A stretch of 64,000 nt of DNA from Paenibacillus thiaminolyticus (lineage in GTDB: Bacteria; Bacillota; Bacilli; Paenibacillales; Paenibacillaceae): the NCBI RefSeq assembly GCF_007066085.1, contig NZ_CP041405.1, positions 992,001-1,056,000 of the forward strand, written 5' to 3'. Positions within the stretch are counted from its first letter, which is position 1, and the number at the start of each line of letters is the position of its first letter. The notes beneath the pieces are model-generated. The model saw only the letters and a list, made by a program, of their open reading frames with translations, made no database searches and was not told where the DNA came from. The position numbers were made by a program, and so were the translations under genes. This document shows, one piece after another, positions 1,862 to 35,465 of this stretch.

Positions 1862-2611
1862 TTACCTTCGCCGGAAAATGCTGCCTGAGCGGCTCCGCGT
1901 CTTCGGCGGTTTATACTTCTTCACCCTCGGCGGCGTGTACTTGGACGAATTATCGTACTCCTTTTTGTTCCTTGTGATCGAGCCCCGCGTATCGCTGTCC
2001 GACGGCGTACGCTTGAAGATGCTCCCCCCGCTGCCGACCGTCGAGTCGTTGCTGTTCGTGCCACGGCGGAAGATTGAACCCTTCCGTTCGACGGTAAGCG
2101 GAGGAATCTTCTTCTTCTCCTCGGTCGTCGGCGTCCGGTACGGCTTCGATGGCTTGTAATCCCCACGATCCGCATATCCCCGGTAGCCCCCCGCTCCTCG
2201 GAGCGAGTCGAACAGCGTATCCAGCAGACGATATTGGATGTACATCTCCAGGAAGCTGCGATCGTAATTGTTCTTTACATATTCTTTGGAATCGACCTCA
2301 ATCAGGCTGTCATCCGGATTCGCCGGATCCTGCTGGATCTGAATCAGCTGATCGCGGTAGACCAGGAACATTCGCTCGGTACTCGTTTCCGATATTTGCT
2401 CCGGCCTGCGCTGTTCCGCAATCGCCTCGGCCGCCTCCGGCACCGGCGTATTCTCCGCGCGATAGATATAGGAAGTGCTGCTTCCGTCCCTCGCCACCGA
2501 TTCCAGCGGATACGACGCGGACAGATCGATCTGTCCGCAAGCCGCCAGCAGCGGGAAGAGAAGGCTGGCGATAATGATCCATTTGACGGTGTTCCAACCC
2601 CGTGTATTCAT
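1862..2611 (-). CDS. DUF4247 family lipoprotein
   Basis: 249 aa exported lipoprotein: hydrophobic signal WIIIASLLFPLLAAC with lipobox LAAC at about residue 24, then a globular segment of about 110 residues matching the DUF4247 pattern (mixed acidic segment ending in SFLEMYIQYRLLDTLF). The tail of about 100 residues is low complexity, rich in Ser, Arg, Lys and Thr, and repeats the tetrapeptide SIFR/SIFK three times. I chose ATG 2611 because GAGGAG lies 7 nt upstream; an ATG at 2626 overlaps the preceding stop (ATGA) but lacks a site. Function unknown. DUF4247 genes are known to occur with PspA, DUF350 and DUF4178 genes, as here, which suggests membrane stress or envelope maintenance. Confidence 0.8.
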   Translation of the reverse strand: MNTRGWNTVKWIIIASLLFPLLAACGQIDLSASYPLESVARDGSSTSYIYRAENTPVPEAAEAIAEQRRPEQISETSTERMFLVYRDQLIQIQQDPANPDDSLIEVDSKEYVKNNYDRSFLEMYIQYRLLDTLFDSLRGAGGYRGYADRGDYKPSKPYRTPTTEEKKKIPPLTVERKGSIFRRGTNSNDSTVGSGGSIFKRTPSDSDTRGSITRNKKEYDNSSKYTPPRVKKYKPPKTRSRSGSIFRRR

Positions 2612-2622
2612 GGCGGATCTCC

Positions 2623-3129
2623 TCATGATCGGCGGATGATGCGCACATCCGCCGCGATGACCGCTTCGCCTTCATACAACTGGAAGCGGCCGTCCTGCCA
2701 TTCGATGCGGAGCAGCTTCCGGTCGTCGGACTGGTATTGCCATACATATTGCTCTCCAGCTGTGCCGAACGGCGTCTGCCCCGTGCAGATCACTCTGCCG
2801 TCATATTGATCCTCTAGATAGAACCATCTTCCGTCCAGTTCGATCTCCGTCGGAACCTCCTCCACCGAATCGAGCCGTCCGTCAATCACTTGATACAGGC
2901 TGTAATAAGGCTGTTCCCGTTCTTCTATATGCAAGTACCGGATGTTCGCCCCGTCACGCAAGGTAACCCAGGCACCCGGGCGAACCCGCCAATCGGTACG
3001 TCCGATGATCTCATAGCTGATTAGAGATACTTCGCAAATATCTCCCGGTTCCAACATGGACGGTTTTTTTTCGGGCTGCGGCGCCTCGGGCTTAGCCATT
3101 ATGTTTTTGATCCGTTTCCACAAGCTCAC
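2623..3129 (-). CDS. DUF4178 domain protein
   Basis: 168 aa, no signal peptide or membrane span. After a basic start and a linker, residues 25-165 form the beta-rich DUF4178 domain (GDICEVSLISYEIIGRT, then WVTLRDGANIRYLHIEE, then WFYLEDQYDGRVICTG). The start is GTG at 3129, supported by AAGGAG 7 nt upstream. The stop overlaps an in-frame ATG of the DUF4247 reading frame, so the two are translated together. The biochemical role is unknown. In known genomic contexts DUF4178 genes accompany PspA, DUF350 membrane proteins and polyamine-synthase-like enzymes; only the first two partners are present here. Confidence 0.8.
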   Translation of the reverse strand: MSLWKRIKNIMAKPEAPQPEKKPSMLEPGDICEVSLISYEIIGRTDWRVRPGAWVTLRDGANIRYLHIEEREQPYYSLYQVIDGRLDSVEEVPTEIELDGRWFYLEDQYDGRVICTGQTPFGTAGEQYVWQYQSDDRKLLRIEWQDGRFQLYEGEAVIAADVRIIRRS

Positions 3130-3159
3130 CGTATCTCTCCTTCCGTTCCCGTCTGTCCG

Positions 3160-3564
3160 TTACAAACAGGCGGCGATGATGAGCGCGCCTACAACATGCA
3201 TCGAACCGGCTACCAGGGCATATGACATCTGCCCCTGCTTCGTGCCTTCCTCCAGATTCATGCCGAACCCGCTCCGGAACAGCAGACGGAGGATGAACTC
3301 CAGAATGAGGAGGATGACGAAGGAGACGGCCGACATGAACAGCGCTTCGGCCAGGTTGTAGGCAACCTTAATCGAGCTCGACAGGATGAATCCTTGCGAG
3401 AACAGCTTCATGACGAAGCGGGTCGTCACCGCAACGTTCCCTGCCCGCATTTCCTGAATATCATTGTAACCCGTGAACAGCGAATCCACGAACATGAGCA
3501 AGAACAGGAGCAAAGCTCCCGTTGCCGTCCATAGCGCAATCCCGGCAATATTGTCGAGAATCAT
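3160..3564 (-). CDS. DUF350 family membrane protein
   Basis: 134 aa, nearly all hydrophobic, with four predicted membrane helices (about residues 8-28, 48-70, 78-98 and 115-133) and a short charged loop GMNLEEGTKQGQ. This matches the YjfL/DUF350 (UPF0719) family of small inner-membrane proteins. The ribosome binding site AAGGGGAG lies about 11 nt before ATG 3564. It sits between pspA and the DUF4178 gene on the same strand. The molecular activity of the family is not established; the operon suggests that it forms a membrane unit with PspA. Confidence 0.8.
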   Translation of the reverse strand: MILDNIAGIALWTATGALLLFLLMFVDSLFTGYNDIQEMRAGNVAVTTRFVMKLFSQGFILSSSIKVAYNLAEALFMSAVSFVILLILEFILRLLFRSGFGMNLEEGTKQGQMSYALVAGSMHVVGALIIAACL

Positions 3565-3620
3565 GTTAATACTGCACTCCCCTTACCGTTCGATGAGATT
3601 TCTGCACCTATCTGGTTAAG

Positions 3621-3651
3621 AAGGACGCTTGCCCTGGCGGCAAGCGTCCTT
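3621..3651 (-). terminator. Intercistronic hairpin after pspA
   Basis: A perfect 13-bp stem (3621-3633 with 3639-3651) with a 5-nt loop lies directly downstream of the pspA stop and 57 bp before the DUF350 gene. Only a short T-rich stretch follows on the minus strand, so partial termination or mRNA stabilisation is likely, which would make pspA more abundant than the three downstream products. Confidence 0.55.
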
Positions 3652-3655
3652 ACTC

Positions 3656-4330
3656 TTACTCAGCGGATTTATCGTATTTTTTCATGATGGCCGCGAGTTC
3701 GTCTTCAACGTCCTTGTTCTTGCCAAGCTTGGCGAACTCGTCGTCAAGCGATTTGGAAGAACCGTTCATCTCGTTCGAGGCTTCGGCCTGAGCTTCCATT
3801 GCCAGCATTTTGTCTTCCATCCGTTTCAACCCGGACATCGCCGTATCGGAGCCGAACCCGGCCATCGCCTTGTTGATTTCCGTCTGTGCCTTCGCCGCAT
3901 TGTAGCGTGCGACCAGCGTCTCGCGCTTGCTCTTCATGTCGGAATACTGCTTCCGCATCTCGTCCAGCTTCGCGCGAAGGTTGTCGGCGGAAGCCTTATT
4001 CTGCTCGTAGCTCGCCTTGAACTCATTCATTTTCTCTTCGGCCGCTTTTTTCTCTTCCAGCGCCCGGCGGGCAAGATCCAGATTATCGGCCTGCACGGCG
4101 ATATGCGCCTGCTCCTCCCGCTTCTTCACCAGTGCGGCTTGCTCCTCGTACGATTGCTTGAAGCGCTTCTCAATCGCGATCTGCTGAGCTACCGCACGTT
4201 CTGCTTCCTCCAGATCCTGTTGCATGTCCCGCAAGTATTGATCGGTCATCTTGATAGGATCTTCGGCTTTCTCGATTAGCGCATAAATGTTGGACATGGT
4301 TACATCACGCAAGCGTTTGAATAATGACAT
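3656..4330 (-). CDS. pspA: PspA/IM30 family membrane-stress protein
   Basis: 224 aa, almost entirely alpha-helical and charged, with an amphipathic N-terminus (MSLFKRLRDVTMSNIYALIE) followed by long coiled-coil heptads to about residue 190. This is the PspA/Vipp1/IM30 architecture, an ESCRT-III-like protein that polymerises on the inner face of stressed membranes. I start at ATG 4330 because GGAGG precedes it by 8 nt and it matches the family N-terminus; the reading frame stays open 31 codons further upstream. It is the first gene of the PspA-DUF350-DUF4178-DUF4247 group. No PspF or PspC partner is present, consistent with Gram-positive systems. Confidence 0.9.
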   Translation of the reverse strand: MSLFKRLRDVTMSNIYALIEKAEDPIKMTDQYLRDMQQDLEEAERAVAQQIAIEKRFKQSYEEQAALVKKREEQAHIAVQADNLDLARRALEEKKAAEEKMNEFKASYEQNKASADNLRAKLDEMRKQYSDMKSKRETLVARYNAAKAQTEINKAMAGFGSDTAMSGLKRMEDKMLAMEAQAEASNEMNGSSKSLDDEFAKLGKNKDVEDELAAIMKKYDKSAE

Positions 4331-4525
4331 GGACAGTTCCTCCCTATGCAGTCTTATCCTCAGTGTATCCTGGAAACCTTGGATTCCTGGGCAAATTGTT
4401 AATCCGTGTTTATACCCATACATACGAATGGAATCCGGCGTTGTTTCACTTTTTTTTGCTCTTCCTATTTTATCATGCTGAGGAGGAGAAGGATAGCTGT
4501 CACAGCAGGTCTCTGTATACAGAGA

Positions 4526-4555
4526 ATGCCGGGGCCGTCACAGCGACCCCGGCAT
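4526..4555 (-). terminator. Terminator of the pyrK-pyrD-lpdD-like operon
   Basis: A 9-bp GC-rich stem (4526-4534 with 4547-4555) just downstream of the minus-strand gene ending at 4567. The T tract is weak. Confidence 0.55.
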
Positions 4556-8682: not shown

Positions 8683-8707
8683 ATAGTATATGTTCCCCCT
8701 TAAGATA

Positions 8708-8848
8708 GCCTGCGAGGTTAGTTGTCGGATTCGGGTCAAGGAGTACCCTACATGCCGGCGATTCGCCAGCTCTGATTCACCCCAAGGCGCTCATCCCGTT
8801 ATGAATGAACACCGGTCAATCATCCCCCGTACTATGTTCGGCTCGAAT
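8708..8848 (-). promoter_or_regulatory. c-di-AMP riboswitch (ydaO/yuaA class)
   Basis: The minus-strand leader carries the conserved blocks of the ydaO aptamer in order: GGGGGAT near 8827, GGGGTGAATC at 8774-8783, a variable hairpin, CCGAATCCGACAACTAACC near the 3' side and CTAACCTCG at 8713-8721, followed within about 30 nt by the ribosome binding site of the LysM/3D gene. This class binds cyclic di-AMP and normally turns genes off; ydaO aptamers are known in front of cell-wall hydrolase and potassium transport genes. No separate terminator is seen between aptamer and start, so control may act on translation or through an alternative fold including the ribosome binding site. Boundaries are approximate. 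Confidence 0.85.
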
Positions 8849-8851
8849 TGC

Positions 8852-8872
8852 ATCATATCACAATTTTGTAAC
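8852..8872 (-). promoter_or_regulatory. Promoter region (-10 TATGAT) with upstream TTACAAAATTGTGA element
   Basis: TATGAT (8852-8857, minus) sits just upstream of the aptamer and could be its -10 box. Instead of a good -35 box it has a TTACAAAATTGTGA element at 8858-8871, one of three related elements in this region, suggesting an activator-dependent promoter. Inferred. Confidence 0.35.
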
Positions 8873-28380: not shown

Positions 28381-29922
28381 ATGTATATCGTAACTTCTGC
28401 AGAAATGCGCACTCTCGATGAGTACGCCATTCATACCATCGGCATTCCCGCAGCGGTGCTTATGGAAAACGCGGGCAGAGCCGTTGCGGAGGAGATTGCC
28501 AAGTTATTGTCCGAGCTGGGAGATCTGGAAGCGAGCAAGCCGTGGCTTATCCTTATCGGCAAAGGCAACAACGGCGGCGACGGCATGGTCGCCGCGCGGC
28601 ATCTGCGGGAACTGGGCGTGGAAGCCGAGATGCTGTATGCGGCGGATCCGGCGAAGCTGACATCCGACGCCGCGATCCAGCGGGATATTGCCGCCAGGAT
28701 GGGCATCGCCGCTTCTGTCTATGGGACGGACAGCATCCGGTGGGAGCGGTATGCGGGGATAGTCGATGCGCTCCTTGGCACGGGAACGGCGGGAGCTCCG
28801 CGCGAGCCGTACGCCTCGCTAATCCGGGAAGCGAATGCCAGCGGACTGCCGATGGTCGCCATCGATATTCCGAGCGGCTTGGATGCGGATACAGGGGAAG
28901 TGAATGTTCCTTGCATTGACGCGGATTTGACCGTGGCCCTCGCCTTTCTCAAGCGCGGGCTGACGCAATATCCGGGTGCGGAACGGGCAGGTCGCGTCGT
29001 CGTCCGTTCTATCGGCATCCCGGCGGAGCTTGCGGACAGGGAGGGCATTCGGACCTTGTGGACGAATGAGGAGCTGTTCCTGCGGCGCTTCGGGCTGAGG
29101 CTGCCGCTGGCGCGCAAGGCGGATACGCATAAGGGCATCTACGGCCATGTGCTGGTCGCGGCCGGTACCCGCCAATATAGCGGCGCCGGGCTGCTGGCTG
29201 CCGCCGCGGCGATCCGCTCCGGGGCCGGACTCGTGAGCTGGGCGCTGCCGGAGCGGATGCTGGACCCGATGATCGGGCGACTCCCGGAAGTCATGCTGCA
29301 CGGCATGCCCGACGACGAACGCGGCGACTGGGCGGCTGTACCGCCCGAGGCGGTGCTGCGGCTGGCCGCCGGCAAGACGGCGCTGGCCATCGGCCCGGGA
29401 ATGGGCCGCTTCGCCGGCGACGCCGCATGGCTGCGCGCGATCTGGACGGGCGCGCCATGCCCGCTCGTCGTCGATGCGGATGCGCTCAACATGATCGCGG
29501 ATGCGGGCGGCCTCGGAGCATGGCCGCAGCGTGACGGCGCTGCGATCCTCACGCCGCATCCGGGCGAGATGGCGCGCCTGACGGGCCTCACCGCGCGCGA
29601 AGTGCAGCGCGACCGCATCGGCCTGGCGCGCCGCTATGCCGTGCAGCACGGCGTGACGCTCGTGCTGAAGGGCGCCCGCACCGTAACCGCCACCCCCGCC
29701 GGGGACGTGTACGTGAACCCGTCCGGCAACCCGGGGATGGCTACGGGAGGTGCGGGCGACGCGCTGGCAGGCCTGATCGCAGGCCTGCTCGCGCAAGACT
29801 TCGACGCCGGCCTCGCCGCGGCCCTGGGCGTCTATCTTCACGGCCTTGCCGGCGACCGCGCCGCCGCAAGCCGACCCTCCCCCGGCTCGATGATCGCCGG
29901 GGATATCATCAATTGCCTGTAG
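28381..29922 (+). CDS. nnr: Bifunctional NAD(P)H-hydrate epimerase / ADP-dependent hydrate dehydratase
   Basis: 513 aa fusion from ATG 28381 (GGTGAGG upstream; an in-frame ATG 11 codons earlier is less likely). N-terminal YjeF_N epimerase domain (about 1-215) with KGNNGGDGMVAARHL and IDIPSGLDADTGEV. The C-terminal carbohydrate-kinase-like dehydratase (about 225-513) shows HKGIYGHVLVAAGT, AIGPGMG, ILTPHPGEMARL and the nucleotide-binding GNPGMATGGAGDALAG. The enzyme repairs hydrated NADH and NADPH. Base composition becomes markedly more GC-rich in the second half. The stop overlaps that of hutI on the opposite strand by 14 bp. Confidence 0.94.
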   Translation: MYIVTSAEMRTLDEYAIHTIGIPAAVLMENAGRAVAEEIAKLLSELGDLEASKPWLILIGKGNNGGDGMVAARHLRELGVEAEMLYAADPAKLTSDAAIQRDIAARMGIAASVYGTDSIRWERYAGIVDALLGTGTAGAPREPYASLIREANASGLPMVAIDIPSGLDADTGEVNVPCIDADLTVALAFLKRGLTQYPGAERAGRVVVRSIGIPAELADREGIRTLWTNEELFLRRFGLRLPLARKADTHKGIYGHVLVAAGTRQYSGAGLLAAAAAIRSGAGLVSWALPERMLDPMIGRLPEVMLHGMPDDERGDWAAVPPEAVLRLAAGKTALAIGPGMGRFAGDAAWLRAIWTGAPCPLVVDADALNMIADAGGLGAWPQRDGAAILTPHPGEMARLTGLTAREVQRDRIGLARRYAVQHGVTLVLKGARTVTATPAGDVYVNPSGNPGMATGGAGDALAGLIAGLLAQDFDAGLAAALGVYLHGLAGDRAAASRPSPGSMIAGDIINCL

Positions 29923-31183
29923 ACACGACCACGTTCCCGCGCTTGAATACAGTATGAACATGATTGATTCCGAAATGATACGGCAAGTAGGCCAGGTTAG
30001 CCGCCTTGAAAATAACGAGGTCCGCCTGCTTGCCGGCTTCCAGGCTCCCTACGGTATCCGCTCTCCCGATGGCATGAGCCGCATTGATGGTCACGGCCGT
30101 CAATACTTCCTCAGGGGTCATGCCCAAGTTCAGACAGCCCAAGGTCATGACAAGCTGGAGCGCTTCCGTAGGCGAGCTTCCCGGATTATAGTCCGTGGAC
30201 AGGGCTACCGCGAGCCCCATCTCGATCATGGTCCGCGCCCGGGCGTGATGTGTCAGCCGCAGATTGAAGGAAGTGGCAGGGAGACAGACGGCCACGACGC
30301 CGGCCTGCCGCATCGCCTCCAAGCCTTCATCCGAAGCCGCAATCAGATGCTCGGCCGAAATGCAGCCCAGCTTGCCTGCCAATTGAGCTCCTCCGATCGG
30401 CTCGATTTCATCCGCATGAATTTTGAGGCCGAAGCCCAATTCCTTGGCGGCAAGCAGGATTTGCTCCGATTCGTCCACAGAAAAAACGCCGTGCTCGCAG
30501 AACACATCGCAAAATTCGGCCAGCCCTTGCCGCTTCACCTCCGGCAGCATCTGCTCGATGACCAGCCGCACAAATTCTCCGGATCGGCCTTTATATTCTT
30601 CCGGCACGACATGGGCTCCCATAAACGTAGATACTAAATCAACGGGATGCTCCCGGTTCAACCGGTGAGTGACCCGAAGCTGCTTCAGTTCGTCCTCCAG
30701 CGTCAGCCCGTAGCCGCTCTTCGCCTCCGCCGTCGTCACGCCGAAGGAGAGCATTATATCCAGGCTCGCTTTCGCCTTCGCATACAGTTCCTCTTCCGTT
30801 GCCTGACGCGTGGCTCGAACGGTGCTCAGAATCCCGCCGCCCTGAGCTAATATTTCCAAATAGGACATGCCCTTCAGCTTCAATGCCAGCTCATGCTCGC
30901 GCGAGCCGCCGTGAACGAGGTGGGTGTGCGGATCGATAAGCCCCGGCGTAACCAGCAAGCCCTGGGCATCATGCTTGCGCTCTATTGCCAATCCGCTGAT
31001 GTCCGCCATCACTTCGTCTTCCGGTCCCGCCGCCACGATGAGTCCGTCCCGGATCGCTACAGCTCCCTTGCGCACGGCCCCCACCTCTGACATTTCACGG
31101 CCTGTGCGCGGCCCCCGCCTCCCTTGCATCGTGATAAGCGTTCCAATGTTATGGATCAACAGATCAATTCGATTATGTTCCAT
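29909..31183 (-). CDS. hutI: Imidazolonepropionase
   Basis: 424 aa amidohydrolase that opens the imidazolone ring in step three of histidine breakdown. The metal site is visible in PGLIDPHTHLVHGG, further ligands in KIHADEIEPIGGA and the aspartate in ALSTDYNPGSSP. GAGAGGGGG precedes ATG 31183. Last hut gene in the window-encoded operon; the terminal genes for formiminoglutamate breakdown (hutG or hutF) and a histidine permease are not seen here. Confidence 0.95.
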   Translation of the reverse strand: MEHNRIDLLIHNIGTLITMQGRRGPRTGREMSEVGAVRKGAVAIRDGLIVAAGPEDEVMADISGLAIERKHDAQGLLVTPGLIDPHTHLVHGGSREHELALKLKGMSYLEILAQGGGILSTVRATRQATEEELYAKAKASLDIMLSFGVTTAEAKSGYGLTLEDELKQLRVTHRLNREHPVDLVSTFMGAHVVPEEYKGRSGEFVRLVIEQMLPEVKRQGLAEFCDVFCEHGVFSVDESEQILLAAKELGFGLKIHADEIEPIGGAQLAGKLGCISAEHLIAASDEGLEAMRQAGVVAVCLPATSFNLRLTHHARARTMIEMGLAVALSTDYNPGSSPTEALQLVMTLGCLNLGMTPEEVLTAVTINAAHAIGRADTVGSLEAGKQADLVIFKAANLAYLPYHFGINHVHTVFKRGNVVVSTGN

Positions 31184-31237: not shown

Positions 31238-32902
31238 TTATATGCCAAGCATCGGTACGCGAACTCCGCAATTCTTCGCCGTCTTAATCGCAAGTTCATA
31301 ACCGGCGTCGGCATGACGGATAATGCCCATGCCCGGGTCTGTATTCAAGACGCGGGACAGCTTCTCGTCCGCTTCTGCTGAACCATCTGCGACGACGACC
31401 ATGCCCGCATGCAGGGAGTACCCCATGCCTACGCCGCCGCCGTGGTGGACAGATACCCAGCTCGCGCCGGAAGCCGTATTCACCAGCGCGTTCAATATCG
31501 CCCAGTCGGCGACCACATCGCTGCCGTCCTTCATGGACTCCGTCTCCCGGTTAGGCGATGCGACGGATCCGCAGTCCAGATGATCACGGCCAATGACGAT
31601 TGGGGCAGAAATATCTCCATTGCGCACCATCTCGTTGATAGCCAAGCCCATCTTGGCCCGTTCCCCATAGCCCAACCAGCAAATACGCGCAGGCAGGCCC
31701 TGGAACGCGACCTTCTCCCTGGCCATCTTGATCCAGTTGCACAGATGGGTGTTTTGCGGGAACAGCTTCAATACAAGCTCATCCGTCTTATAAATATCAT
31801 CCGGATTGCCGGATAGCGCCGCCCAGCGGAACGGCCCCTTCCCCTCGCAGAAGAGCGGGCGAATATAAGCCGGAACGAAGCCAGGGAATTGAAATGCTTC
31901 GGTTACCCCTTCATCGAAGGCCACTTGGCGGATATTATTGCCGTAATCGAATACAATCGCGCCCAAGTTCTGAAGATCGAGCATCGCCTGGACATGGGCG
32001 GCCATCGATTTTTTGGACAGCTTCACATATTGCGCCGGATCGGCCGCACGCAGTTCGGCAGCCGCTTCCAGTGAATAGCCTGCCGGTACATAGCCGTTAA
32101 GCGGATCATGGGCCGACGTCTGATCCGTGACGAAATCGGGTCTGATCCCCCGCCGCACCATTTCTGGGAACACCTCCGCCGCATTGCCCGCCAGGCCGAT
32201 CGAGAGCGCTCTTCCCTCCGCCTGCGCATCACTCGCCAGCTTCAACGCTTCATCGAGATCGTGAACCATAATATCGCAGTATTTCGTATCGATTCTGCGC
32301 TGGATCCGGGACGGATCGACCTCCACTCCAATCATGACGCCGTCGTTCATCGTGACGGCGAGCGGCTGGGCTCCTCCCATGCCGCCGAGGCCCGCCGTTA
32401 ACGTCAGCGTTCCTCTAAGGGTGCCTCCATTATGCTGGCGGGCCGCCTCGGCGAAGGTCTCATACGTTCCTTGCAAAATGCCCTGCGTCCCAATATAAAT
32501 CCAGCTTCCGGCCGTCATTTGCCCGTACATCATCAGTCCCTGCTTATCAAGCTCGTGGAATGTGTCCCAATTGGCATAGGCAGGCACGATAACCGAATTG
32601 GAGATGAGGACCCGCGGCGCGTGCGTGTGCGTCCGGAACACGCCGACCGGCTTGCCGGATTGCACAAGCAGCGTTTCATCCGCTTCCAGGTTCGTGAGAC
32701 ATTCCACGATTTTGTCGAAGCATTCCCAGTTGCGCGCCGCCTTGCCGATGCCGCCATATACGACCAGATCTTCCGGACGCTCGGCCACATCGGGATCCAG
32801 ATTATTCATAAGCATCCGCAGGACCGCCTCCTGCTGCCAGCCTTTCGCAGTCAATTCCGTTCCATGTGCCGCCCTGATGATACGTTTGGTAGGTTGCTTC
32901 AC
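31238..32902 (-). CDS. hutU: Urocanate hydratase
   Basis: 554 aa from GTG 32902, where AAAGGAG lies 9 nt upstream and the length then equals known urocanases; the frame is open 14 codons further. Tight NAD+ binding uses the glycine-rich [13 protein letters not shown]; the C-terminal third has the conserved [13 protein letters not shown] and the family block [19 protein letters not shown]. It converts urocanate to imidazolone propionate. Third gene of hutH-hutP-hutU-hutI. Confidence 0.96.
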
Positions 32903-33054
32903 AAATAGCCACTCCTTTGTGATAGATTCGACAAACAATATCAAAGCCCGCTTTCCACCTCTTCAAAACATCTCTAAAGAAGGGCGTCTGACACTAGCCC
33001 AGCTTGCGCGCATAGCAGCATGACATGAAGGAGTATCGCAAGATGACGCTGCAT

Positions 33055-33531
33055 TTAAATATGGTTGTACCCGAACCCGAGCACATCGTGCTCGAATCCT
33101 TTTTTGGGGGCGCCAATCGTGCCGTATACGCAGACGCTTAACCATTCCTCGGAATATCCCGATATTTCGACTCTCCCTCTCGTGATGCAGAACGTTAACC
33201 CTACGGTCCGCAAAATATCTCCGAATTGGACCGTCCCTCTTCCAATCCCCTGCAGCGCTTCGATGATGGCATGGTATAAAGAATGAACTTCCCGATAAGA
33301 GTTCGGATCAATCACCTTGTTCGCTTTGGCGCTCGTTTCAATCGCCGTCACGACTTTGACCAATTCCATCGCGCCGACCTTGCCGATCGTATACCGGTAT
33401 CCCCTTTTTCTCATCTCCTCCTCAATTTCCGCGCCCGCTTCTTCGTTATGGAGCATGACCAAAAGCGAAGTCAGCTTGCCCATCGTATAATTGCCGCAGT
33501 CGAACCGATTTCCTTCATTCCGGTTACTCAT
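33055..33531 (-). CDS. hutP: Hut operon positive regulatory protein HutP
   Basis: 158 aa from ATG 33531 (GGGAGG 6 nt upstream); the open frame reaches further into the hutH region without a site. HutP is an L-histidine- and Mg2+-activated RNA-binding protein that prevents termination in the hut leader. Conserved segments: GKLTSLLVMLHNEEAGAEIEEEM, YTIGKVGAMELVKVVTAIETSAK, then HSLYHAIIEALQGIGRG with the two histidines expected to bind the metal, and VYGTIGAPKKGFEHDVLGFGYNHI. In Bacillus subtilis hutP is the first gene, before the terminator. Here it is second, behind hutH and behind the leader terminator, so its own synthesis depends on antitermination. Confidence 0.93.
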   Translation of the reverse strand: MSNRNEGNRFDCGNYTMGKLTSLLVMLHNEEAGAEIEEEMRKRGYRYTIGKVGAMELVKVVTAIETSAKANKVIDPNSYREVHSLYHAIIEALQGIGRGTVQFGDILRTVGLTFCITRGRVEISGYSEEWLSVCVYGTIGAPKKGFEHDVLGFGYNHI

Positions 33532-33657: not shown

Positions 33658-35211
33658 CTACCGAAGCTTGATTACATCCCCAATGCTCGCGGCGGCATCA
33701 GTCTGCCTCATCCACTCCGCCACCTTGTGAAAATCATCCGCAAGCACGCGATCCTTCTCCACGGCCGGGACAAGCGTGCGGCATTGGTCATAGAGCCATT
33801 TCGTCCCCAGCCCAAGCAGCCGCGGGTCGCGGAAATCAGCCGCTTGCGCCCCGCACAGCAGCTCAATGGCGAGCACTGCGTAAGCGTTCTCAATGATCTG
33901 CTTCGCTTTGCGCGCGGCGATGGTTCCCATGCTGACGTGATCCTCTTGGTTGCCCGAGGACGGAATGGAATCGACACTGGCGGGATGAGCCAGCGCCTTA
34001 TTCTCGGACACGACGGACGCCGCTGCGTACTGCGCGATCATGAAGCCAGATTCAAGCCCCCCATTACTCGTCAGAAAAGCCGGAAGCTGCTCATTCAAAT
34101 GAGGATTGACGAGCCTTTCGATTCGCCGTTCGGCAATGTTGGCCAGCTCCGCTGCGCTGACGGACAGATGGTCCATTGCCAGTGCAACCGGCTGCCCATG
34201 GAAATTCCCGCCCGAGATCACTCGCCCCTCATCCACAAAAATTAGAGGATTATCGGTCGCCGAATTGATTTCAATTTCCAGCTTGCCGGCAATATAGGCC
34301 AGCGCATCCCGGCTTGCCCCATGGACCTGCGGCGCGCAGCGCAAGGAATAGGCATCCTGCACCCTCCGCTCCCCTTGACTCGTCATTAACTTGCTTCCAG
34401 AGGTTAGCCGGATTACATTTTCGGCGGATTGGCGCTGTCCTTGATGCGGGCGAATGAGGTGGGTCAACGGATCGAAGGCGTCCCGGACGGCGAACAGCGC
34501 TTCACAAGTCAATGCAAGCGTGCAATCGGCCCAGTTCGCCAGATTCATGGCATCGTAACAGGCCAACGCGCCTACGGCCGTCATCGCCTGCGTCCCGTTG
34601 ATAAGGGCTAATCCCTCTTTCGCCTCCAGCGTGACGGGAACGAGACCGGCAAGCTGCATCGCCTGGCCGCCCGGCATTCGTGTGCCCTGATAATAAGCTT
34701 CTCCCTCGCCGACCAGCACGAGCGCCAAATGGGACAACGGCGCCAAATCGCCGCTTGCGCCGAGCGAGCCTTTTTCCGGGATGACCGGTGTTACCCCGTG
34801 ATTCAGCATGCCGACCATCAATTGCACCACTTCCGGACGGATGCCGGAGTAGCCAAGCGCAAGCGCATTGACACGCAGCAGCATAATCGCTCGCGCGATC
34901 TCGATCGAGAACGGGGCGCCGATTCCGCACGCATGGCTTCGAATGAGATTCAACTGCAGCGCTTTGACATCTTCGCCGGAAATATACGTATCGCAAAACT
35001 TCCCGAAGCCGGTTGTCAAGCCGTACACCACTTTTTTCTCGCGAAGCAATGTTTCAACATAAGCCCTGCTCTTCTCCATGCTGCGGATGCTCTCTTCGCA
35101 CAGCTCCACCTTCGCATCGAAGCGGGCAACCTGAACGACCTGCCTAATCGTTAATGCCCCGCCGCCCACATACACGGCGTGATGATCTTCCTTATGATCC
35201 ATTACCTGCAT
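33658..35211 (-). CDS. hutH: Histidine ammonia-lyase
   Basis: 517 aa. The Ala-Ser-Gly triad that cyclises to the MIO cofactor is at 152-154 in GSLGASGDLAPLSHLAL; VVYGLTTGFGKF near residue 62 and GNFHGQPVALAMDHL are further family blocks. It removes ammonia from histidine to give urocanate, the first step of the pathway. Start at ATG 35211 with AGGTG upstream (an ATG three codons on is possible). First gene of the hut operon, preceded by a 226-nt leader with a terminator and HutP-type binding motifs. Confidence 0.96.
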   Translation of the reverse strand: MQVMDHKEDHHAVYVGGGALTIRQVVQVARFDAKVELCEESIRSMEKSRAYVETLLREKKVVYGLTTGFGKFCDTYISGEDVKALQLNLIRSHACGIGAPFSIEIARAIMLLRVNALALGYSGIRPEVVQLMVGMLNHGVTPVIPEKGSLGASGDLAPLSHLALVLVGEGEAYYQGTRMPGGQAMQLAGLVPVTLEAKEGLALINGTQAMTAVGALACYDAMNLANWADCTLALTCEALFAVRDAFDPLTHLIRPHQGQRQSAENVIRLTSGSKLMTSQGERRVQDAYSLRCAPQVHGASRDALAYIAGKLEIEINSATDNPLIFVDEGRVISGGNFHGQPVALAMDHLSVSAAELANIAERRIERLVNPHLNEQLPAFLTSNGGLESGFMIAQYAAASVVSENKALAHPASVDSIPSSGNQEDHVSMGTIAARKAKQIIENAYAVLAIELLCGAQAADFRDPRLLGLGTKWLYDQCRTLVPAVEKDRVLADDFHKVAEWMRQTDAAASIGDVIKLR

Positions 35212-35255
35212 ATCCGCACCTGCTTTACTATAAATAGTAGTTTCGGTAACGGCTT

Positions 35256-35272
35256 CTAATGACTATTCGCTA
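35256..35272 (-). promoter_or_regulatory. HutP-type RNA site II: three UAG triplets at 4-nt spacing
   Basis: On the minus strand three UAG triplets (35270-35272, 35263-35265 and 35256-35258) are spaced by 4 nt each. The 10-nt string TAGTCATTAG is repeated exactly in site I. HutP of Bacillus subtilis is known to contact tandem NAG triplets with this spacing. Confidence 0.65.
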
Positions 35273-35340
35273 AAGGCCATTGCTTCATCCTATTCTTTCA
35301 CTCGTTTCCGCCAACTCAAATATACACGTTCACGACCTCT

Positions 35341-35405
35341 AAAAAACAAAAAGAATGCAGTTCGATAAGGAAACCGAGTACTTCCCTCATTCAAAGCTAC
35401 ATTCT
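35341..35405 (-). terminator. hut leader terminator (antitermination target)
   Basis: On the minus strand AGAATGTAG (35397-35405) pairs with CTGCATTCT (35352-35360), extended inward by a long imperfect stem to a loop around 35374-35381, and followed by TTTTGTTTTTTT-like sequence at 35341-35351. It lies between the predicted promoter and hutH, so transcription would stop here unless HutP binds. Confidence 0.8.
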
Positions 35406-35420
35406 GTTCACTAATGACTA
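35397..35420 (-). promoter_or_regulatory. HutP-type RNA site I: four NAG triplets at 4-nt spacing
   Basis: Reading the transcript, triplets UAG (35418-35420), UAG (35411-35413), CAG (35404-35406) and UAG (35397-35399) are each separated by exactly 4 nt. The last two lie in the 5' arm of the terminator stem, so a protein bound here would block stem formation. Confidence 0.7.
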
Positions 35421-35436
35421 TATAGAGCTTACATTT

Positions 35437-35465
35437 AATTTACAACGTTGGAGAAGGTTAGTCAA
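35437..35465 (-). promoter_or_regulatory. Promoter of the hut operon
   Basis: TTGACT (35460-35465) and TAAATT (35437-35442), minus strand, 17-nt spacing, just upstream of site I. Confidence 0.6.

Follow-up and report, generated by a model that had tools for sequence, protein, structure and literature searches.

A predicted tandem HutP-responsive leader ahead of hutH in Paenibacillus thiaminolyticus

The hut operon of Paenibacillus thiaminolyticus lies on the minus strand of a 64,000-nt stretch of the genome (contig NZ_CP041405.1, positions 992,001 to 1,056,000), here called the window, in the order leader, hutH, hutP, hutU and hutI. The leader, predicted to run for approximately 220 nt from promoter to hutH, holds two clusters of regularly spaced NAG triplets, one overlapping an intrinsic terminator and the other located beyond it. 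A tandem leader responding to HutP probably explains the arrangement as a whole best, and the leader is predicted to be a new arrangement of the known HutP antitermination system.

To our knowledge, the classic antiterminator HutP is known mainly from one site in Bacillus subtilis. This site lies between hutP and hutH and has its triplets at 4-nt spacing. The B. subtilis hut system is described as having L-histidine-activated HutP, NAG clusters and a terminator (PMC7430163, PMC8934654), and the second paper describes HutP as directly binding sequence repeats in the terminator loop (PMC8934654). A literature search, whose coverage did not extend to the main HutP papers, retrieved no paper dealing with Paenibacillus HutP sites or with an action of HutP at the level of translation.

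Layout of the hutH leader

An earlier note on this DNA had proposed a HutP antitermination leader with two NAG clusters, and this is supported as the best reading of the hutH leader. The coordinates given there for the promoter, both triplet clusters with their spacing and the shared motif were confirmed, all on the minus strand, to which the positions below refer. The promoter-like TTGACT-17-TAAATT was found by sequence scan at 35437..35465. AAGCU (35426..35430), located at the predicted 5' end of the transcript, is the 5' arm of a stem, P1, closing around cluster 1. Cluster 1 is the first predicted HutP site (35397..35420, UAG-UCAU-UAG-UGAA-CAG-AAUG-UAG), and its four NAG triplets (TAG 35420-35418, TAG 35413-35411, CAG 35406-35404 and TAG 35399-35397) are separated by gaps of 4 nt. 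The 3' arm of P1, AGCUU (35394..35398), shares bases with the fourth NAG and with the 5' arm of terminator 1 (35341..35404; stem 35404-35353 and T-rich tail to 35341), so that P1 and the terminator would be mutually exclusive. The rho-independent terminator overlapping cluster 1, also claimed in the note, was borne out by folding: its stem has -20.8 kcal/mol and a z-score of -4.4, and none of 200 shuffles was equally stable. It is absent from the output of a consensus terminator scan of the window, perhaps overlooked owing to its interrupted stem.

The other predicted HutP site, cluster 2 (35256..35272, UAG-CGAA-UAG-UCAU-UAG), has three TAG triplets (35272-35270, 35265-35263 and 35258-35256), again with 4-nt gaps, and TAGTCATTAG is common to both clusters. 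Around it lie the arms of a putative stem P1', AUGGC (35276..35280) and GCCGU (35249..35253). Four bases of the latter are also part of a putative Shine-Dalgarno-sequestering hairpin (35214..35252), in which CCGUUACC (35252-35245) pairs with GGUGCGG (35220-35214). The stems closing around the clusters and this possible hairpin go beyond what the note described. The clusters are 124 nt apart (35397 to 35272) with terminator 1 in between. Lying 68 nt past the T-run, cluster 2 cannot join the decision at terminator 1; its end is 44 nt from the hutH start codon. A second terminator after cluster 2 was considered and rejected, as there is no T-run between the cluster and hutH.

HutP itself is encoded in the operon, as had been noted, though its gene (33055..33531; PF09021, 4.5e-25) sits downstream of hutH. 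It is the one PF09021 match in the whole genome, a single contig of 6.61 Mb. In the 200-aa frame, His125, His129 and His190 align with histidines of YREsHALYHA and GLEHE in 1wmq, which together with 4ok9 represents the solved structures of HutP relatives. These histidines of 1wmq we take to be the metal and ligand binders of B. subtilis HutP.

Sampled loci

HutP was searched for in overlapping sets of genomes, namely the order (392 genomes, 47 with a match), phylum (398, 257), class (398, 49), genus (19, 5), a related family (104, 21) and the family of the window (394, 38). Together with named records this yielded 115 loci, phylum-sample loci L077-L106 being left out: 85 with the order hutP-hutH (type B), 12 with hutH before hutP and 18 unassigned. 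Type A refers to the order hutH-hutP, E1 to a cluster with terminator at the operon start and E2 to the same before hutH. The ten type-A leaders counted below exclude two loci that also have hutH before hutP: L223, in the leader of which no terminator was found, and L136, with its hutH start outside the fetched stretch. Four of the unassigned loci (L129, L130, L137 and L140) are misoriented and stand outside the type counts; in each, a NAG cluster and a terminator-like stretch come after hutP, and the locus has a hutH match.

Conservation of the leader and comparison with chance

Conservation of the triplet spacing in related leaders had been set beforehand as a check, and all ten type-A leaders retain it: the four in-register NAG of cluster 1 and the three in-register UAGs of cluster 2 are present in 10/10. 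The promoter TTGACT-17/18-TAA..T, ending 6-7 nt ahead of the P1 5' arm, is equally constant (10/10). Automatic detection missed the terminator in two of the ten leaders, L205, where the stem is visible by eye, and L108, where stem and T-run are visible. With hutP in the operon and the metal and ligand histidines aligned, this spacing is consistent with antitermination by HutP at cluster 1, which is likely. No Rfam family covers the leader at or above its gathering score, and none of the other Rfam leader families matches it; one sub-threshold NsiR1 match falls on the upstream terminator.

Judged by shuffled sequences, a chain of four NAG is expected 1.00 times per 64-kb window and a chain of three UAG 0.09 times, so cluster 1 taken alone is unremarkable. 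In the genome (6.6 Mb) UAG-N4-UAG-N4-UAG occurs at 10 sites, seven of them within one tandem repeat, and UAG-N4-UAG-N4-NAG-N4-NAG at nine, six of them within the same repeat. What lifts the clusters above chance is that both sit in one leader of a HutP-encoding operon and are conserved in all ten type-A leaders; chance alone as their origin was rejected on this conservation, though cluster 1 singly is not improbable. A chain of three UAG (spacers of 4-6 nt, at most 100 nt before the terminator end) accompanies 63 of 189 non-redundant terminators near hutP or hutH compared with 6 of 826 in other parts of these loci, the true hut terminators of the four misoriented loci falling on the control side of this count. 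Five of these six controls are E1-like elements and the sixth is L214. An earlier control, in which 25/875 terminators had an exact NAG triple and 11/875 three UAGs, was replaced by this count because most of its matches were hut elements missed by position filters.

Strict-pattern searches for other HutP targets in the genome gave only the hut leader, the tandem repeat and a few scattered matches. Of 2137 first-look candidates, 150 were scored with covariance model R1, and at E values of up to 10 the hut leader alone was recovered, a match made by construction, as the window sequence is in the model.

E1 and E2 elements across Bacilli

The strict pattern had 40 matches: the ten type-A leaders, four between hutH and hutP, 19 in type-B loci, five in unassigned loci and the minus-strand matches L116 and L118. 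Counted without these two and without the out-of-register L234, E1 is present in 10/10 type-A, 18/85 type-B and 5/18 unassigned loci. E2 was found in 77/85 type-B and 4/18 unassigned loci with a loose pattern of three NAGs (spacers of 4-6 and 4-8 nt) next to a hairpin with a T-rich tail, and the stricter pattern of three UAGs is present at 54 of 94 E2 terminators (42 of 76 non-redundant). In many Bacilli E2 reads GCCCAUAG-N4-UAG-N4-UAGGGGGCU followed by a terminator, including two loci in which HutP shares 93-94% identity with the B. subtilis protein. In none of 81 E2 elements did the stem and the 40 nt following it contain another NAG triple of exact 4-nt spacing, and a B. subtilis-like second cluster of exact 4-nt spacing inside E2 was rejected on that count.

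E2 is still found before hutH in L048, L053 and L072, although hutP is approximately 3 kb away. In L048 and L215, E1 precedes a gene resembling, by eye, an ABC solute-binding lipoprotein, ahead of hutP, and the E1 of L210 is located 3 kb behind hutP, ahead of another gene. On the whole hutP often lies behind a predicted HutP element, which would make a positive feedback.

In the two loci with B. subtilis-like HutP (L141, 1952-1998, minus; L143, 1417-1463) the 5' untranslated region of hutP contains CAG-UUAC-UAG-UUAU-CAG with exact 4-nt spacing, directly after a TTGACT-17-TAATAT promoter and with no terminator visible. The R1 scores are weak there (15 bits, E about 0.5), and these triplets may represent what is left of an E1, or a site of autoregulation. 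An E1-like element of L118 (4547-4593, minus) is on the strand opposite hutP, and no open frame of at least 150 aa follows it on that strand (2500-4550). Many of the HutP-family proteins in the phylum sample (257/398 genomes) score far above the HutP of Bacilli. The loci from other classes, probably Clostridia (L077-L106; 30 loci, 99 kb), contained no chain of three UAG and one triple with two UAGs. That their HutP-family proteins use the same sites was rejected, the one R1 match (14.6 bits, E 0.6) being taken as chance, and their function is probably different.

The closing stem P1

In E1 the stem P1 encloses the triplets and takes in the 5' arm of the terminator. Its arms are AAGCU/AGCUU in type A and CUCAGC/GCUGAG, AAGCGC/GUGCUU or AAGUAC/GUGCUU elsewhere. 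The flanks of the clusters pair better than permuted ones, with 0/1000 permutations as good for E1 (25 distinct pairs, only L234 and L116 dropped) and 0/2000 for E2 (65 distinct pairs). The E1 alignment A1 comprises 28 sequences, L234 and L116 (out of register or dissimilar), L049 and L050 (first triplet not in register), L118 (minus strand) and exact duplicates having been dropped. In its two register groups 83.9% and 86.1% of the P1 cells are paired and the covariation score tops 500/500 and 499/500 shuffles, figures that serve as indicators and not as probabilities because the loci are related and sorted by register. The stem suggests that HutP binding also builds an antiterminator. The title of Oda et al. 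2004 reportedly names a 'hut antiterminator RNA', so there may be an earlier proposal of a P1-like stem in B. subtilis.

Cluster 2 as the counterpart of E2

Cluster 2 is the counterpart of the E2 located between hutP and hutH in type-B Paenibacilli. There the element reads, with variations, UUUAG..UAG..UAGAAGCCGGUACC-loop-GGUAUGGGCUUUUU..GUAAAGCAGGUG-start, and type-A leaders have UUUAG-N4-UAG-N4-UAGAAGCCG(C/U)UACC..GUAAAGC(A/G)GGUGCGGA-start. After the common UUUAG..UAG..UAGAAGCCG, type B continues with GCCGGUACC..GGUAUGGGCUUUUU and type A with GCCG(C/U)UACC..GUAAAGCAGGUGCGG. The type-A element is thus without the terminator 3' arm and the T-run, and its remainder lines up with the type-B E2.

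Between the two type-A groups, cluster 2 with its tail is 79% identical, compared with 22% for the spacer and 59% for the fourfold sites of hutH (L045 left out for its short hutH frame), which argues that the element is probably held by selection. The hutH frame of L045 ends after 64 codons with similarity spanning residues 56-517, and the gene looks broken in that assembly. Between CCG(C/U)UACC and GGUGCGG at the ribosome site, seven standard pairs are possible in 9/9 distinct rows, representing all ten leaders. The three bases following the ribosome site GC(A/G)GGTG, which pair with CCG, are CGG in 10/10 type-A leaders and vary in the ten type-B leaders compared. P1' retains at least four pairs in every type-A leader. 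The distance from the T-run to cluster 2 ranges from 16 to 317 nt; the longest spacer, in L205, is an apparent insertion (16-81 nt in the other nine) with both clusters intact.

Origin of the type-A arrangement

In terms of its parts the window leader combines E1 and E2 without an intervening hutP. Outside type A, the window hutH is closest to the hutH of type-B Paenibacilli (71-78%, 20 loci), followed by L056 (67%), and has 55-60% identity to L207, L208, L234 and seven Bacillaceae loci. The window HutP has its nearest relatives elsewhere, with 65-70% identity to L056, L207, L208 and L234, 58-72% to eight Bacillaceae loci and 54-64% to the Paenibacillus type-B group. Identities of hutU do not separate the groups. 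Seven type-A proteins form one group (99/93) in the HutP tree, next to L234 and L208, with weak forks nearby (84/76, 87/47); L206, L040, L041 and L207 were left out of the tree, their translated stretch holding stops.

A third element is located between hutH and hutP in L041-L045. It has its own promoter (TTGATATTGACA-like, TATAAT in four), three UAGs and a terminator-like stretch. The element is intact in the type-A loci labelled f6 (5/5 by eye, 4/5 by pattern), and the five loci of the window's genus have lost its in-register UAGs, so vestiges do decay here. The simplest history, with its order of events inferred from sequence comparison, would be that the hutP separating E1 from E2 was lost and that another hutP with its own element was gained behind hutH.

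Proposed mechanism and alternatives

For the tandem HutP-responsive leader the following course may be proposed. With no histidine, the transcript from the promoter at 35465-35437 would fold terminator 1 and stop near 35341. HutP loaded with histidine and metal would bind the NAG triplets of cluster 1 and close P1 (AAGCU/AGCUU), which would withdraw the 5' arm from the terminator and let hutH-hutP-hutU-hutI be transcribed; read-through would yield more HutP, a positive feedback. Cluster 2 would be the former antiterminator between hutP and hutH of a type-B operon, brought beside cluster 1 by the loss of hutP, with a hutP of another lineage having come to sit behind hutH. The surviving 5' arm of E2, GCCG(C/U)UACC, would pair with GGUGCGG at the hutH ribosome site. 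As four bases of this hairpin are also needed by P1', the two would compete, and HutP on cluster 2 would close P1' (UGGC or CGGC with GCCG), free the ribosome site and raise translation. We infer binding and antitermination by HutP, and above all this translational step, from the sequences compared. Translational control at cluster 2 is a plausible, reasoned guess. The full proposal is tentative, with a chance we put somewhat below even: a HutP-controlled terminator lost its 3' half along with hutP, the 5' half took on the role of masking the hutH ribosome site, and one protein lifts first a transcriptional and then a translational block, an activating mirror image of TRAP.

A number of observations weigh against parts of this reading. 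P1 occurs in two registers one base apart, and the split of E1 by register favours the stem. There are two two-sided P1 pairs in each group, a number reached by 238 and 234 of 500 shuffles; some slid alignments give three, and in the second group a slide of +2 gives six two-sided cells compared with five. The share of paired cells in that group was reached by 16/500 shuffles. The window P1 alone is weak (-3.6 kcal/mol, no better than shuffles). At E2 the triplets were picked by score from the loose pattern, which has no control of its own, and some are clearly out of register; no obvious P1 is seen at E2 in L052 and its kin. The exact (4,4) NAG spacing is found at only 27/94 E2 terminators as compared with 25/875 controls, and the 4-nt spacing is relaxed in many type-B relatives. 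As for the translational step, the Shine-Dalgarno hairpin is without two-sided change and mildly stable (z -1.8, 13/200 shuffles equally stable), with the pairing between the ribosome site and GCCG-UACC reaching a mean probability of only 0.36-0.48 in the genus of the window. For P1' the share of paired cells is 86.7%, reached by 63/500 shuffles, with no covariation; folded alone, this stem pairs its own UAGs.

In the main rival a single HutP hexamer serves both clusters and only docks its second RNA-binding face on cluster 2, with the spacer looped out, the complex steadied and translation unregulated. It accounts for TAGTCATTAG being common to both clusters, and a looped spacer would tolerate any length, in line with the 16-317 nt found between T-run and cluster 2. 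It is nevertheless rather unlikely in our estimate, perhaps one case in several: cluster 2 is transcribed only once the polymerase has passed the terminator, it matches a stand-alone element that had its own terminator, the conserved block continues after the UAGs, taking in the pairing tail and reaching the start codon, and a second cluster of exact 4-nt form is not general among E2 elements (0/81). The loss of the terminator half would also fit cluster 2 being a functionless fossil of the terminator that once stood between hutP and hutH. We consider this improbable in view of the three in-register UAGs kept in 10/10 leaders, the identity of 79% (fourfold sites 59%, spacer 22%), and the decay of a comparable element before hutP in the same genus.

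The sequence cannot reveal the direction of an effect, and HutP on cluster 2 could in principle lower hutH translation as a brake at high HutP. We give this slightly less credence than the fossil, since 44 nt separate the end of cluster 2 from the start codon, more than the usual ribosome footprint covers, and closure of P1' would free the ribosome site and not hide it. Least probable by far is that the clusters are due to chance or serve another triplet-binding protein such as TRAP. A chain of four NAG is indeed expected about once per window, yet conservation in 10/10 leaders and enrichment before hut terminators speak against chance. A TRAP-type leader was rejected because TRAP sites have about 11 GAG/UAG repeats at 2-3 nt spacing, compared with four and three repeats at 4 nt here.

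Operon and genomic context

Within the operon hutH (histidine ammonia-lyase; PF00221, 1.9e-204) is located at 33658..35211, minus strand as are the following genes. The hutP open frame extends to 33657, and its start is probably at 33531, where a ribosome site, ATGAGTAAC and TGAGTAAC are common to type-A relatives. An open reading frame at 31238..32944 is hutU (urocanase), and hutI (imidazolonepropionase, 29909..31183) has amidohydrolase family matches; its name rests also on the operon because the imidazolonepropionase-specific model scores below its cut-off. Upstream of the leader lies a pyridine-nucleotide-disulphide oxidoreductase gene, read as dihydrolipoyl dehydrogenase and followed by a terminator (35553-35529, minus). 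Named records found with the window HutP show the same, very similar operon in Paenibacillus sp. 2.1 and P. dendritiformis. Elsewhere in the window there is a c-di-AMP riboswitch (RF00379, 56 bits) at 8692-8853, minus strand.

Comparison with known systems and significance

HutP sites are triplets taken as single-stranded in a loop and not bulged helices as for BglG/LicT, and the proteins are unrelated. The P1 proposal resembles the BglG/LicT systems in having a protein-stabilised stem that excludes a terminator; one paper contrasts this type of mechanism with that of HutP (PMC8934654). Like the B. subtilis hut system, the window operon has an L-histidine-activated HutP (predicted here), NAG clusters and a terminator. 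In the two loci in which HutP is a 93-94% match to the B. subtilis (1wmq) sequence, hutH is preceded by AGCCC-AUAG-N4-UAG-ACGA-UAG-GGGGCU, the same closed-cluster plan. Unlike in B. subtilis, hutP is behind hutH and would come under the predicted antitermination, the terminator being at the operon start, and a second cluster without terminator is placed at the hutH ribosome site. As reviewed, the second NAG cluster of B. subtilis is approximately 20 nt from the first, whereas that of the window is 124 nt downstream, past the terminator, making the leader a variant and not the B. subtilis layout. Type-B Paenibacilli (E1-hutP-E2-hutH) have both elements, with motifs and order as in the window leader; they keep hutP between E1 and E2 as well as the E2 terminator, and the window leader has neither.

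The trp leader of B. subtilis offers another parallel: it combines a terminator with a Shine-Dalgarno hairpin, and an oligomeric amino-acid-binding protein, TRAP, wraps its NAG-like triplets. TRAP differs from HutP in being another protein of opposite sign, shutting off its operon, and in the number and spacing of its repeats.

For HutP, the comparison predicts dozens of natural sites, forming a family characterised by a covarying closing stem. It also points to HutP control of hutP itself in many operons, and the hutH leader of type-A Paenibacilli may be a case of a transcriptional element converted into a translational one.
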